Positions 15,425 to 23,706 of a stretch of DNA of 64,000 nucleotides are shown piece by piece (positions within the stretch are counted from its first letter, which is position 1; every line of letters begins with the position of its first letter). A program made the position numbers and the translations under genes. The notes under the pieces are model-generated. The model worked only from the letters and a program-made list of their open reading frames with translations, was not told the origin of the DNA and made no database searches. The DNA comes from Candidatus Kuenenia stuttgartensis (GTDB lineage: Bacteria; Planctomycetota; Planctomycetia; Isosphaerales; Isosphaeraceae): NCBI GenBank assembly GCA_945865635.1, contig CAMBEP010000006.1, forward strand, positions 62,001 to 126,000, written 5' to 3'.

Positions 15425-17305
15425 TCAGGTCGATTCATCGTCAGATTCAAGGTCTAATCCCTCTTCTTTGAAGTCTCCGGTATAGGCCACCTTTCCGGTC
15501 GCTCGTTCGATCAGGCTCAAGAGTCGATTCTGTCGATCTACCATGAACGCGTCAAAATTATCAGATCGCAAAAGAGATGGATCAATCAAGTGCGACTCAA
15601 GAAACTCATCGAGCTTTTCTCGGGCAATCGGTGGAGTTGTCTTATTACCGGCTTCCAACTTGCTTAGATATAGCGAAGGGGCAATTCCTCCAATAATTCG
15701 ATTCGTCCGATAGGAAAGCGGTGTCTTGTTGATAATCGAGTCGAACAGATTCGAGTTGATTCCACGAGCTTTGCACCAGTCCTTTGGGAAGATGTGGTGA
15801 ATATCGATATTCTCGCCAAAAAAGATTGTGTGATCGAACTTTTGTCCCGACCGAAAATCCTGAGCGCCTTCTTTCATGAGCAATGCGTTCATGCCTTTAT
15901 AGGCCGCAGAAAGACGCATGCGCATGGTTTTTAATCGGTCGGCTCGGAACATGGTCTCACTGACGGTCGACGGTTCTGGGCCGCCTTTGAGCCACACGGG
16001 TACCTCCATGAAGTCCCGAGCGATCCGCGTTTCAACCGCTGAGCCATAAAGCTCGCCGAAAACGCCATTCCAATACCATCGCACAAGTTTATCTCGATTG
16101 GCTTCGTGTTCCCAGTGGTGTCCAATATCAGCAAGAATGGCCGCCAGTGGGACGATCTGAGACTGATAAGGCAGGTCAAAGATGCGGTAGATATGGAGCA
16201 TGTGCAAGAACTTCGCTGCTTGCTCAAAACCATGCTCCACTTGCGTTTCAAATCGCTTGTACTCTTCGAGTGGCAGATTGAGCAAAGCTTGCCGGGTGCA
16301 TGAAACGGCTGGCAACTCTTTGCCCTGTTTTCCGGCGTTCTCTGCGGCCCGGCGTCGGTCGCGGGTATAAAAAAGGGAGATCGCCTGAAGAAAATCTGTA
16401 TTGGAGACTTCGGCTATGATACCGGTTTCCGCACCATCCGGCCTGAGTTTCTCAGCCAGACGCCGATGGCGGCCTTTTGTCCGTTCGTCGCCATACCAGT
16501 CTTTACGTAATTCATGGCCAGAAGCGGCATACATTGCGGTCACAAGTTCGAAGGCGTCCAGAGGTTTTCCCCCAGTGTTCACCTTTTCAAACACAACGCA
16601 CACGGCCTCTTTGGAGGTTGAACGATCCAGGGTAATGACCGGGACGCGGTAATACTTGAAATTTTCAAGAACTTGTCGCTTGAAAGCTCGGAATTCGTCA
16701 CGAATGCCTTCATTAAGATCCCCATGCCAGTGCTTGTCGAACCCATCTTGCCATTTGTCCCAATCAAAGACCTTGGAAACCGGGTACATCAGGGTGGCAT
16801 ATTCGTTTTCGGCGGAGGAAAGATCCAAGACCAATTCCCGTCCGAAATCGGTTCGAATGATACGATCCTCTGGCACTCCGACAATGGCTTCCTCGCGATC
16901 GGCAGTCGCCTCCAGCGCTTTTCGGATATCAATATAAAACCATCGCTTGACCTTTTTGTTCTTCGGTGTAACAGTCTCGACAACGTCTCCTCTTAATGTC
17001 ACTTGATATAACGAAGTCATCCTCTGTTGACCATCAAGAAGCAAGGACTGAGGGGTAGCTTGTCTCGCTTCGGCGGGTGCACCTTCAACGGGGCGGGGTT
17101 TGAAATTTACGGGGCCACCAGAATTAAGCGACATCAAGGCACCAACTGGAAAAGCTCTGGAAACGGAAGCAATCAAACTCTTGATCCGATCCTCATCCCA
17201 AACCCAACTGCGCTGAAAATCAGGCAATTGAAGAACACCGCGATGGCAATCTTCAAGGAGTTCATGAAGATCAAAAGGATTCGTCTGGAACGTAGATGCC
17301 GCCAT
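15425..17305 (-). CDS. DUF262 (GmrSD-like) protein with C-terminal HNH motif; probable DNA-modification-dependent restriction or defence protein
   Basis: 626 residues. The N-terminal ParB-like DUF262 domain is clear: LPDFQRSWVWDEDRIKSL at 27-44 and LLLDGQQRMTSLY with DGQQR at 91-95 (the nucleotide-binding/hydrolysis signature of GmrS). The C-terminal part holds NIDIHHIFPKDWCKARG (about residues 497-515), an HNH/DUF1524-like nuclease motif, with FDSIINKTPLSYRTN following. This resembles single-chain GmrSD type IV restriction enzymes that cut glucosylated or otherwise modified phage DNA. Here the DUF262 and HNH parts are joined in one polypeptide and no methyltransferase, BREX or other defence gene is adjacent. 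Role in defence is inference from family. Confidence 0.8.
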   Translation of the reverse strand: MAASTFQTNPFDLHELLEDCHRGVLQLPDFQRSWVWDEDRIKSLIASVSRAFPVGALMSLNSGGPVNFKPRPVEGAPAEARQATPQSLLLDGQQRMTSLYQVTLRGDVVETVTPKNKKVKRWFYIDIRKALEATADREEAIVGVPEDRIIRTDFGRELVLDLSSAENEYATLMYPVSKVFDWDKWQDGFDKHWHGDLNEGIRDEFRAFKRQVLENFKYYRVPVITLDRSTSKEAVCVVFEKVNTGGKPLDAFELVTAMYAASGHELRKDWYGDERTKGRHRRLAEKLRPDGAETGIIAEVSNTDFLQAISLFYTRDRRRAAENAGKQGKELPAVSCTRQALLNLPLEEYKRFETQVEHGFEQAAKFLHMLHIYRIFDLPYQSQIVPLAAILADIGHHWEHEANRDKLVRWYWNGVFGELYGSAVETRIARDFMEVPVWLKGGPEPSTVSETMFRADRLKTMRMRLSAAYKGMNALLMKEGAQDFRSGQKFDHTIFFGENIDIHHIFPKDWCKARGINSNLFDSIINKTPLSYRTNRIIGGIAPSLYLSKLEAGNKTTPPIAREKLDEFLESHLIDPSLLRSDNFDAFMVDRQNRLLSLIERATGKVAYTGDFKEEGLDLESDDEST

Positions 17306-20254: not shown

Positions 20255-20488
20255 TCAGACCTTTGCCTTGGCCGGACGGGTCTTGGATTCTCGAGCGGTC
20301 CGCCAGTCGACTTTCAGAGCCTTGAGCTCTTCAAGTGTCACGCCTGTGTGCTCGGCATCGGCAAACCACTTGGCACGAATGACCTTCCAGCGGTCGCGCA
20401 GAACACCCTTGGGAAGGAAACGGTCTTCAAAACGCTTGATAAGCTTCAGGCGGGGGTCGGCTACGGTGTAGGCAGGTTCTGTGGACAT
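20255..20488 (-). CDS. Conserved small hypothetical protein
   Basis: 77 residues from ATG 20488, beginning MSTEPAYTVADPRLKLIKRF. It is basic, rich in Lys/Arg/Trp (FLPKGVLRDRWKVIRAKWF), with a Lys/Ala tail. No domain is recognised. A longer in-frame extension to 20764 exists but overlaps the Gfo/Idh gene on the same strand, so the short form is preferred; GAAGGG lies about 12 nt before this ATG. It sits between the Gfo/Idh gene and ald in a run of co-directional genes. Confidence 0.55.
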   Translation of the reverse strand: MSTEPAYTVADPRLKLIKRFEDRFLPKGVLRDRWKVIRAKWFADAEHTGVTLEELKALKVDWRTARESKTRPAKAKV

Positions 20489-20607
20489 GATTCGGTTCAA
20501 CCCTTCGAAGTGACAAGCACGCCTAGCACCTTTGGCGATAGACGTGCTCTTGCATTTGTGTTTGTTAGTAACAAGATACCCAAGCCATTGCCAAATTGCA
20601 AGTCGGC

Positions 20608-21741
20608 TTATCGATTCCCGTTCGAATCCAGCGACGAAATGCCCGATCGGCGGCGACGCCACATAATCGGACCCGCCAGACCTGCGATTGGAACCCGCTC
20701 GGGTGATGCATGCAGTGGCAGCGATCTTTTCCAGTCTTCCATTGTCATGACCGATAGAATCCATTCGGCCAGCTCAAGCGCTCGGTAGGCATCCTCGCCG
20801 GTCACCTTTGGTCGTTGGCTGTGAATGATGGAGTTCACGAAGTCGTCAAGCTCCGCACCCAGCATTTCGGATTCCTCGCCCTGAAACTCTTCGACTTGAA
20901 GCAAGTTCCCAAAGACGTGATCCCGAACCGCATTGGTCGATGTCATGTCGAGCGATTCCGGCTGCAGCTCGCCGCCTTCGATGATCGCCGCGCTGGGCCG
21001 GAGGAAGGTGGCTTTGCGTGTCGCAAAATCCATGTCCACATAGCCTTCCATGCCCCACATCTTCAATCGGCGGCTGGCCGCCAGGCTGGCTCGGCAGGCA
21101 GAGAGGGTGGCCACTGTGCCATCGGCAAAGTCAACTCGGGCATCAACCATATCTTCCTGACCACCAAAAACCGTCAGCCCATAGGCCGATACATGCCGCA
21201 CCGGAGCACTGACACACGACAGGATCAAGTCCAGGTCGTGGATCATCACATCATGGACCACTCCAATATCGGTCGACCGGAAACTGTAGGAACTGTGACG
21301 TTCCGAGGCGAGCAGGCGCGGCGTGATCGGGAATTTGTCGAGCACACCCAGAACCGGGTTGAAACGCTCAATGTGGCCCACCTGAAGAATGGCTCGGCTT
21401 CGCTTGGCAAGGCCCAGAAGATCTGACGCCTCATCCAGATCCGCCGTCAGAGGCTTCTCCACCAGAACATGAATGCCACGCTCCAGAAATGGCTTGGCCA
21501 GCCTGTGGTGCAGAACGGTCGGGGCCGCGATGCTCACGGCATCAACCTTGTTGATGATCGCCGAAATGTCGTTATAGGCTTCGCAGCCAAGGGTTGCAGC
21601 AACCTTTTCGGCTTGCTCCTGACGACTGTCCACCACAGCCACCAGATTCACATCCGGATGGTGCCCCAGGATTCGGGCATGATGACGACCCAGGTGGCCG
21701 ACTCCGACGACTGCGACTCGTGGAATGGATGAAAAAATCAC
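20608..21741 (-). CDS. Gfo/Idh/MocA family oxidoreductase linked to lpxA
   Basis: 377 residues. The N-terminal Rossmann domain has VAVVGVGHLGRHHARIL (G-x-G-x-x-G), VAVVDSRQEQA, and the signature HVLVEKPLTADL with the catalytic-type Lys in E-K-P; the C-terminal domain has VVHDVMIHDLDLIL with the D-x-x-x-H pattern. I start it at GTG 21741: GGAGGGTG lies just upstream and the GTG overlaps the lpxA stop as GTGA, which implies translational coupling; an ATG at 21753 is weaker. Coupling to lpxA suggests a substrate related to UDP-GlcNAc. GnnA, a Gfo/Idh enzyme that oxidises UDP-GlcNAc C3 for lipid A in some bacteria, is one candidate, but no GnnB-type aminotransferase is in view. Confidence 0.88.
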   Translation of the reverse strand: MIFSSIPRVAVVGVGHLGRHHARILGHHPDVNLVAVVDSRQEQAEKVAATLGCEAYNDISAIINKVDAVSIAAPTVLHHRLAKPFLERGIHVLVEKPLTADLDEASDLLGLAKRSRAILQVGHIERFNPVLGVLDKFPITPRLLASERHSSYSFRSTDIGVVHDVMIHDLDLILSCVSAPVRHVSAYGLTVFGGQEDMVDARVDFADGTVATLSACRASLAASRRLKMWGMEGYVDMDFATRKATFLRPSAAIIEGGELQPESLDMTSTNAVRDHVFGNLLQVEEFQGEESEMLGAELDDFVNSIIHSQRPKVTGEDAYRALELAEWILSVMTMEDWKRSLPLHASPERVPIAGLAGPIMWRRRRSGISSLDSNGNR

Positions 21742-22541
21742 GCCACCCTCCATTGCTCAGGATAGCTTCCGAGGCGGTTTCCGGCGGAGGCTTCAAGATG
21801 TTGGAAAAATTCACGTACTTCCGGTGTCCCGCCAGAGTCACTGCAAAGCAACTGCTCTGCACGCTCCAGGGGCAACCCGGTTCTGTAGACCTGACGATAG
21901 GCCTGTATCACGGCATTGATCCCGAAAGGATCCACACCAAGTCGCTGCAAACCAGCCACATTCACGCCCCTGACTGTCGCCGGGCGACCGTCTGCAAGCA
22001 TGTGTGGAGGAATGTCGATGCCAACCTGACTGAGTGTGCCCACCGCACAGTTCCGGCCCAAACGGACTCCCGCCTGAACCACAGTCCCATGCCCCACTGA
22101 GGCATTCTCTGCCAATTCAGCCTGCGACCCGATCACGACACCCGAACCAAGATGCACATCATGGCCCAGTCTCGCGCCCGATTCCAGCTTGGCTAGCGAT
22201 GAGACCACACAGCGGGCGCCCAGAATTGTCGGCACTGCCGATGTCCCGGATTCGATCACCACTGCCCGGCCCAGCCTGGTGAGCAAACCAATGCGAATCC
22301 CGACCGATTTGGCCGTACCACGGCGAAGGTCGATCTCACGACCGCCAATCACGCAAAATTCGGCAATATCGCACTCAGCGCCGATCTCTGTGCAGCAACC
22401 AACGTAAGTGTGATCACCAAGCCGGCAAGAATATTCCACGCTGACATGCGGACCAATCACGCAATACTGCCCAATACGGGTGCCGTCTGCCAATTGGGCA
22501 GCGGTATCCACACAGGCTGTGTCGGCGATCCATCGCACCAT
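21738..22541 (-). CDS. lpxA: Acyl-[ACP]-UDP-N-acetylglucosamine O-acyltransferase (LpxA)
   Basis: 267 residues, the usual size. LpxA adds the first acyl chain to UDP-GlcNAc in lipid A synthesis. The body is a left-handed beta helix of hexapeptide repeats (for example IGQYCVIG, VGCCTEIGAECDIAEFCVIG, LGSGVVIGSQAEL). GHDVHLG aligns with the A-H-D segment that carries the catalytic His in characterised LpxA. The C-terminal helical part (GVNVAGLQRLG, INAVIQAYRQVYRTGLPLERA) is typical and separates LpxA from LpxD. Substitutions in the central repeats compared with proteobacterial LpxA are noticeable, so acyl-chain or sugar preference may differ. GGAGG lies 8 nt before ATG 22541. Confidence 0.88.
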   Translation of the reverse strand: MVRWIADTACVDTAAQLADGTRIGQYCVIGPHVSVEYSCRLGDHTYVGCCTEIGAECDIAEFCVIGGREIDLRRGTAKSVGIRIGLLTRLGRAVVIESGTSAVPTILGARCVVSSLAKLESGARLGHDVHLGSGVVIGSQAELAENASVGHGTVVQAGVRLGRNCAVGTLSQVGIDIPPHMLADGRPATVRGVNVAGLQRLGVDPFGINAVIQAYRQVYRTGLPLERAEQLLCSDSGGTPEVREFFQHLEASAGNRLGSYPEQWRVA

Positions 22542-22672: not shown

Positions 22673-23545
22673 TCAGCCGGCCTTTCCAGAGGCGGCCAAT
22701 ATCGCCCTTACCAGTTCTGCGTTTAGGCTGTGACCCGACTTATGGGCCACAACCCGTCCGTGTATCCGGCAACCCAGCAGCCTGAGATCGCCAATCACAT
22801 CAAGCATCTTGTGACGCACCGGTTCATTGGGATATCGCAGACTGTTTTCGATTGGGCCATCAGGACCGAATATCAGAAGATCCTGAGCCGTACAATGGCG
22901 GCCTATTCCTGCGGCGCGTAGCTGTTCCACCTCGCTCTCCAGGACAAATGTGCGGGCCGAGGAAAGTTCGCGTTCGAACTCGCCTTCGAAGAGCTCAAAG
23001 TCATGGACCTGCTGACCAATAATCGGGTGATTCGCATAATCCAGCGTATAATTCAATTCAAATGCGGTTCCACTGCCGGGCATGGCTGTCAAACTCATGC
23101 CACCTTCGTTGACCGTGATTTGTTGATCAATCGACCAGATCCTGGCAGGCACGTGCTGATCACGGATTCCGGCACGTCTGAGAGCCTCAACAAAGGCCTG
23201 GCTTGAGCCATCGCATCCGGGTGTTTCCGCGGCATTCATTTCTACCCGGCAATTGTCGATTCCCAAGCCCGTCAAGGCTGCCATGACATGCTCGATCATT
23301 TCGATCACAGCATTGTCCTGACCGATGGAAGTACGGCGCTGGCGTGGGATTACATAATCAATGGTGGCAGGAATTTCAGGTTTGCCTGGCAGGTCGGTGC
23401 GAATAAATACAATGCCAGTGTCGGGCTCGGCCGGATAAAAATTCAGCTCGACGGCCGTGCCTGTCAAATAACCTCGTCCCTCAAGCCCTGAAGGCTTTTG
23501 GATGGTGCGCTGGCCGGGTGCGATGCTCCGAAATGGGTCGCTCAT
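22673..23545 (-). CDS. lpxC: UDP-3-O-acyl-N-acetylglucosamine deacetylase (LpxC)
   Basis: 290 residues from ATG 23545. LpxC is the zinc-dependent committed step of lipid A synthesis. Visible motifs: MIEHVMAALTGLGIDNCRVEMNAAETPGCDGSS (His86 as the first zinc ligand and the D-G-S-S element), SSARTFVLESEVE, RYPNEPVRHKMLDVIGDL (zinc His and Asp) and AHKSGHSLNAEL (catalytic His). The N-terminal GRGYLTGT replaces the proteobacterial GVGLHTG. There is no C-terminal FabZ fusion, which some related bacteria have. An in-frame start 126 nt further upstream is possible but the extension has no conserved features. Gap to lpxA is 131 nt on the same strand. Confidence 0.93.
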   Translation of the reverse strand: MSDPFRSIAPGQRTIQKPSGLEGRGYLTGTAVELNFYPAEPDTGIVFIRTDLPGKPEIPATIDYVIPRQRRTSIGQDNAVIEMIEHVMAALTGLGIDNCRVEMNAAETPGCDGSSQAFVEALRRAGIRDQHVPARIWSIDQQITVNEGGMSLTAMPGSGTAFELNYTLDYANHPIIGQQVHDFELFEGEFERELSSARTFVLESEVEQLRAAGIGRHCTAQDLLIFGPDGPIENSLRYPNEPVRHKMLDVIGDLRLLGCRIHGRVVAHKSGHSLNAELVRAILAASGKAG

Positions 23546-23647
23546 GGTGCCTGCAGGATCCTTCCTGGCATTCTTCTCAATCCGATTTCGGCGGGTTCTG
23601 ATCTGCAAGCACGAAGGGGGCTTTGCAGATGGATTCTGTTTTTGACA

Positions 23648-23706
23648 CACGCCGCCACAACCCGAAGACATCCTTGTCGTCGGGCTGGGGTGGCGTGCTT
23701 TTTTTT
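23648..23706 (+). terminator. Strong plus-strand intrinsic terminator between two minus-strand genes
   Basis: A roughly 22-bp stem (left arm from 23648, right arm ending 23697; a few mismatches) is followed directly by C and eight T (23699-23706). The polarity is right only for plus-strand transcription, yet the flanking genes lpxC and ompH-like are both on the minus strand. It may end an unannotated plus-strand RNA antisense to the lpxC 5' region. Confidence 0.6.

Follow-up and report, generated by a model that had tools for sequence, protein, structure and literature searches.

A GnnA-family oxidoreductase gene overlapping a degenerate lpxA-like gene in a planctomycete, and its predicted part in lipid A synthesis

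The gfo gene, its start and its family

The window, that is, the whole stretch of 64,000 nucleotides that was analysed, carries on its minus strand a gene for a Gfo/Idh oxidoreductase of 377 amino acids (20608..21741, gfo in what follows). It is preceded on the same strand by a gene for an LpxA-family protein of 267 amino acids (21738..22541) and, further upstream, by lpxC (22673..23671; TIGR00325, 219 bits against a cut-off of 187; PF03331). Homology to LpxC begins at residue 54 of the latter open reading frame, whose true start probably lies downstream of its first ATG. Downstream of gfo lies a minus-strand ORF of 78 amino acids (20258-20491), for which no Pfam match was found. More distantly, the minus strand at 15425-17305 encodes a protein of 626 amino acids with a GmrSD_N restriction-endonuclease domain (PF03235, 100 bits), possibly a defence gene among housekeeping genes.

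The gfo gene starts with a GTG (21741-21739) that overlaps the TGA of the lpxA-like gene (21740-21738) by 4 nt, forming the tetranucleotide GTGA at 21738..21741 on the minus strand. A GGAGG resembling a ribosome-binding site is present at 21747..21751, 5 nt before the GTG. The first in-frame ATG (21751..21753, minus strand) lies 12 nt 5′ of the GTG. In all three congeners, designated G001, G003 and G002, this ATG is missing, and it was rejected as the start; the GTG at -4 is conserved and is the first in-frame start. GGAGG is present in G001 and G003, and GGAGC in G002. Since none of the three has an in-frame start further upstream, the GTG is supported, and the preliminary description, which had moved the start 12 nt from the first ATG to a GTG overlapping the lpxA stop, was right on both points. 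In the class, a start codon at -4 with respect to the stop of LpxA is available in 24 of 48 genomes in which an LpxA ORF immediately precedes gfo (the 49 such genomes less G009). In a separate set of 80 GnnA loci from named genomes, a start is found at -4 in 44 of the 48 loci with lpxA directly upstream. Overlaps of four bases are common in operons generally, and the GTGA arrangement is conserved yet not unusual. Translational coupling of the lpxA-like gene and gfo is what is usually inferred from such an overlap.

The Gfo protein has the GFO_IDH_MocA domains of Pfam, and both the EKP lysine and the HD motif are present. Its best solved relative in the PDB is 7bvj, with 164 bits, the next structure scoring 67 bits. 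When the 7bvj stretch was used as a query, it retrieved Acidithiobacillus loci, with up to 98% identity, in which the order is lpxD-fabZ-lpxA-Gfo-DegT-lpxB. This locus is taken here as the gnnA-gnnB cluster, whose gene order in Acidithiobacillus is presumably the one observed. The PDB names 7bvj only as an NAD-binding oxidoreductase; the query stretch shares 98% identity with the Gfo encoded in the cluster of Acidithiobacillus ferruginosus, and 7bvj is probably the GnnA of A. ferrooxidans. The functions of GnnA and GnnB are understood as described in the parts consulted of two publications (PMC8036547; PMC5644692).

In a tree of 144 Gfo sequences (FastTree, midpoint-rooted, local support values), the window protein and its orthologs group with the proteobacterial Gfo proteins of lpxA-gnnA-gnnB clusters. 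Fourteen Gfo paralogs were found in the same genome (G000), and the seven of these put in the tree all fall outside the GnnA clade. Support is 0.862 for the clade that excludes them and 0.999 for the inner node that holds the window and proteobacterial proteins. At all 35 alignment columns in which 95% or more of 137 clade members agree, the window Gfo has the conserved residue; these 137 include the window protein and its orthologs, and some genomes twice. The NCBIfam model for UDP-GlcNAc 3-dehydrogenase, which represents the archaeal enzyme, gives a score below its cut-off (NF040723, 169 of 450 bits). The Acidithiobacillus GnnA-type protein likewise falls below its cut-off, with 162 bits, and the model therefore does not define the bacterial GnnA family. 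Identity as a general sugar dehydrogenase was rejected on the tree and on the scores of 164 and 67 bits obtained with 7bvj and the next structure. Membership of the window protein in the GnnA family is supported, and UDP-GlcNAc 3-dehydrogenase activity is predicted. The GnnA-like character proposed in the preliminary description is supported by the 7bvj match and the tree position, and the residue comparison with GnnA that it suggested gave agreement at every family-conserved column.

Genomic context and a candidate aminotransferase

Orthologs of gfo were found in all 59 genomes of the class that were searched, the present one counted, and in 102 of 129 genomes of the phylum, with match scores splitting at 163 versus 74 bits. 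By position, an LpxA-type gene is directly upstream in 49 of the 59 class genomes. In the lpxA-gfo class loci read with wide flanks, lpxC is always found further upstream (17/17). Ten class genomes have no lpxA directly upstream, and in the nine loci read among them gfo adjoins lpxC and no lpxA intervenes. Of the 101 phylum genomes carrying both genes, 80 have gfo no more than 6 kb from lpxC; lpxC occurs without gfo in 24 genomes, and gfo without lpxC in one. The association of gfo with lpxC is no weaker than that with lpxA, and by position it belongs to lipid A synthesis, though it is not universal for it. A different arrangement was seen in four loci (L155, L182, L187, L212), where a GnnA-like gene is some 900 bp behind lpxA with lpxB directly downstream and no GnnB in the stretch; the gap of about 900 bp possibly holds LpxI.

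The preliminary description had noted that an aminotransferase partner was not to be seen, and had proposed a genome search for a GnnB-like protein. The observation holds for the window, but not for the genome. Fourteen Pfam matches to DegT include seven strong DegT proteins, of which the one encoded on contig C11 (G000:C11:46972-48168) is closest to Acidithiobacillus GnnB, with 45% identity and 314 bits; the next scores 285 bits. This gene is on another contig than the window and stands alone between a CbiX-domain gene and an ORF that by eye resembles a sigma factor. Orthologs scoring at least 380 bits are present in 54 of the 59 class genomes, again counting the present one. The ortholog is a fragment in G003 and is absent from G008, G009, G020 and G024; four of these five genomes are at most 77% complete. 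In an IQ-TREE analysis of 49 sequences, with one gene entered twice (L262 = L303, both from G167), the C11 protein is in a clade with GnnB (UFBoot 94), and WbpE, QdtB, DesV and five other DegT proteins of the same genome are outside.

The label GnnB is not firm because the clade also holds Wlb-type members. The planctomycete DegT clade (UFBoot 100) includes proteins from G086, G167 and G178, genomes outside the class, whose genes lie beside WbpD-, WbpA- or WlbA-like genes; with G179 and G112, added from wider loci, this is the case in 5 of the 14 non-class genomes examined. Within the class, none of 35 loci, a few of them shortened by contig ends, shows Wlb-type genes at a distance of up to about 1.5 kb from DegT, and none of seven wider loci shows them either. 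Neither gfo nor lpx genes were found near DegT in 17 wider loci, and in none of 62 gfo-positive phylum genomes did the best DegT match of at least 340 bits lie within 20 kb of gfo. DegT matches at this threshold are present in 62 of 102 gfo-positive versus 7 of 27 gfo-negative phylum genomes (Fisher p 0.002, not corrected for relatedness), leaving 40 of the 102 without one, and the pairing of the two genes is loose over the phylum. The C11 protein is thus only a candidate GnnB, found by the proposed search and placed in a clade with GnnB, but unlinked and in the company of Wlb-type proteins; it may instead act on a 3-keto uronic acid.

Contig C10 (G000:C10; L092, 6801-10594) carries another pair of Gfo/Idh and DegT genes, with an ORF resembling a membrane protein between the two genes and one resembling a glycosyltransferase nearby, both judged by eye. 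It looks like a Wlb-type 3-amino sugar cassette. The C10 DegT (L001) is less likely to be GnnB, being encoded together with its own Gfo in a cluster of glycan type and falling with QdtB and DesV in the tree.

The overlapping LpxA-like protein

The product of the gene at 21738..22541 shares with canonical LpxA the hexapeptide repeats and a C-terminal PF13720 domain (60.9 bits, cut-off 24.5). Unlike canonical LpxA, it scores below the equivalog cut-offs (143.9 of 231 bits for TIGR01852 and 154.7 of 226 for PRK05289), and its active site is degenerate. The catalytic residue of LpxA is His125; residue numbers are those of the E. coli enzyme. In an alignment to a profile of 38 LpxA copies from the class, which is gap-free against the window protein from residue 104 on, Lys118, Ser121, Gln140 and Gln156 stand at His122, His125, His144 and His160. 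Further comparisons gave the same residues. Codons 118-121, with the first two of these replacements, are at 22179..22190 on the minus strand, and their numbering was checked. An AlphaFold model had a mean pLDDT of 79.6. A PDB search with it returned LpxA chains at the top, yet with a TM score of about 0.3 and an rmsd of about 14, and the model was therefore not used for placing residues.

The gene is still under purifying selection. By a simple counting method, and with dS partly saturated, dN/dS for the lpxA-like gene is 0.13 between G001 and G003 and about 0.22 to G000. The corresponding values are 0.02-0.03 for gfo among G000, G001 and G003, rising to 0.04-0.07 in comparisons with G002, and 0.08-0.11 for lpxC. 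Values well below 1 indicate that the LpxA-like protein is still constrained. Its identity with the G002 protein is 38-39%, versus 80% for Gfo.

Another LpxA is encoded on contig C61 (G000:C61), beside an ORF that by eye resembles leuD. It scores 298.8 bits against the cut-off of 226, and His122, His125 and His144 are kept, with Gln at His160 and Tyr at Asp74. On these residues it is the better LpxA, though not a perfect one. The protein encoded next to gfo is probably not the working LpxA, which qualifies the earlier claim of a Gfo coupled to LpxA: an LpxA-family ORF does overlap gfo, but four active-site histidines have been lost from it and the other LpxA is elsewhere.

Loss of His125 was found in 8 of the 49 operonic LpxA proteins of the class (G000, G001, G002, G003, G010, G014, G027 and G035), and in G013 His144 alone is lost. 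All 59 class genomes have at least one LpxA copy with His125, and each of the eight genomes with the loss has a further copy that retains it. This co-occurrence in 8 of 8 is consistent rather than significant, because a second copy is present in 30 of the 37 family genomes and the eight come from few lineages; the seven single-copy family genomes keep all four histidines. In a Gfo tree that lacked G010 and G035 and was read for branching order rather than support, the window genus and the pair G014 and G027 are apart, with intact genomes nearer to each. At least two losses of the LpxA active site are therefore likely. Copy number can be higher: LpxA-family copies number four in G011 (L273, L274 and L275 among them) and three in G028 (L284), and in L274, L275 and L284 His160 is replaced by Val or Ile and Gly173 by Ser or Met.

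A predicted route to diamino-sugar lipid A

The reading that is favoured, with moderate confidence, is that GnnA, the unlinked DegT and the C61 LpxA form a route to lipid A containing 2,3-diamino-2,3-dideoxyglucose, and that the degenerate LpxA is kept in a non-catalytic role. The lpxC, lpxA-like and gnnA genes would form an operon in which gnnA is expressed from the GTG overlapping the upstream stop. GnnA would oxidize UDP-GlcNAc at C3 to a 3-keto sugar, which the C11 DegT would aminate to UDP-GlcNAc3N. The C61 LpxA would acylate this product, and LpxC from the window, LpxD (C20), LpxB (C16) and LpxK (C11) would follow, matches to the last three being present in the genome. The modified lipid A sugar is a prediction. 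The LpxA-like protein, devoid of the catalytic histidines, may persist as a partner, either to the active LpxA or to GnnA. A more specific version, offered tentatively and with rather low confidence, is a conserved pseudo-acyltransferase that probably lost its activity at least twice, in lineages having a second LpxA, and that may now serve as a non-catalytic partner, for example by forming mixed trimers together with active LpxA, or as a docking protein in the transfer of UDP-GlcNAc3N from GnnA to LpxA.

The LpxA-like ORF might instead be kept only as a coupling carrier that delivers ribosomes to GnnA, or be slowly decaying, a possibility given about the same modest weight and one that is compatible with the favoured route. 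The loss of active-site residues, the faster evolution of LpxA than of Gfo in the comparison with G002, and the GTGA overlap itself would all fit. However, the dN/dS of 0.13 between G001 and G003, where that of lpxC is 0.11, and of about 0.22 to G000 indicates that the protein sequence itself is constrained. Moreover, G010, G014, G027 and G035 retain a full-length LpxA ORF without His125 where gfo homology starts 69 to 328 nt past the LpxA stop and there is no start at -4. A reading that is far less probable still has the LpxA-like protein active as an acyltransferase, the catalytic histidine having shifted to His127 of a GHD motif. A phmmer alignment to E. coli LpxA alone does keep a histidine at 125 by placing His127 there, though this opens a gap of 6 residues further along, and His127 is kept in G001 and G003. 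The class profile puts Ser121 at that position with no gap from there on, the region aligned around 125 is without any histidine in the congener G002, and both alignments agree on the loss of His122, His144 and His160.

Two other alternatives concern the sugar. In the WlbA/WlbC (WbpB/WbpE) pathway, a Gfo/Idh enzyme oxidizes C3 and a DegT enzyme aminates the product to give a 3-amino sugar. By the same chemistry the window Gfo and the C11 DegT could make a 3-amino sugar nucleotide, GlcNAc3N or its uronic acid form, for a surface polysaccharide, leaving lipid A with ordinary glucosamine. This is considered unlikely. It would explain why DegT relatives are found beside Wlb-type genes in 5 of 14 non-class genomes, and why the DegT gene lies apart from lpx genes. 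Against it, the window Gfo adjoins lpxC or lpxA across the class and is near lpxC in most phylum genomes with both, Wlb-type genes are lacking from the 35 class loci and the seven wider ones, and the genome has its own Wlb-like Gfo and DegT pair at C10, from which the window Gfo and the C11 DegT are separate in the trees, Gfo grouping with lpx-linked GnnA. A still less likely alternative is that Gfo acts alone on a lipid A precursor, by oxidation at C3 or by oxidation and re-reduction, with no aminotransferase in the pathway. Twelve of the 80 GnnA-type loci are without GnnB in the fetched stretch, some having lpxB directly downstream, though in at least two of the twelve (L153, L208) the stretch stops with GnnA or shortly after it. 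In 67 of the 80, GnnB follows at a distance below 600 bp, and the GnnB-like gene in 54 of 59 class genomes likewise speaks against Gfo acting alone.

The route to diamino-sugar lipid A has its closest parallel in the Acidithiobacillus cluster (L135), where the Gfo/Idh gene is also directly behind lpxA with a 4-nt overlap, the GnnA family residues are shared, and a GnnB-like aminotransferase is likewise encoded in the genome. That cluster reads lpxD-fabZ-lpxA-gnnA-gnnB-lpxB, whereas the order in the window is lpxC, lpxA-like, gnnA, the aminotransferase gene is unlinked, and the coupled LpxA has no active-site histidines. Separation of gnnA from gnnB, as in the present genome, is described for Mesorhizobium loti in the part of the source consulted (PMC5644692). 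In the literature searched, no pairing of planctomycetes with GlcN3N was found, nor anything on the sugar selectivity of LpxA in Leptospira. The sole pairing of planctomycetes with gnnA there, in a source consulted in part, concerns virus-borne genes in lake sediment, and planctomycete papers mentioning lipid A or its genes do not give the backbone sugar in the portions of text examined. Nearly every gene of the lipid A pathway is essential in Planctopirus limnophila, according to the portion of that study consulted (PMC10632474).

If the favoured reading is true, lipid A with a diamino sugar would characterize this bacterial class in general. A degenerate LpxA that selection maintains next to GnnA would be a pseudoenzyme, and one not expected in a pathway whose genes are mostly essential. 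For annotation, caution is advised: the operon gene at 21738-22541 should not be called lpxA. The overlap of a GnnA-like gene with a degenerate LpxA leads to a testable prediction on the membrane chemistry of these organisms.
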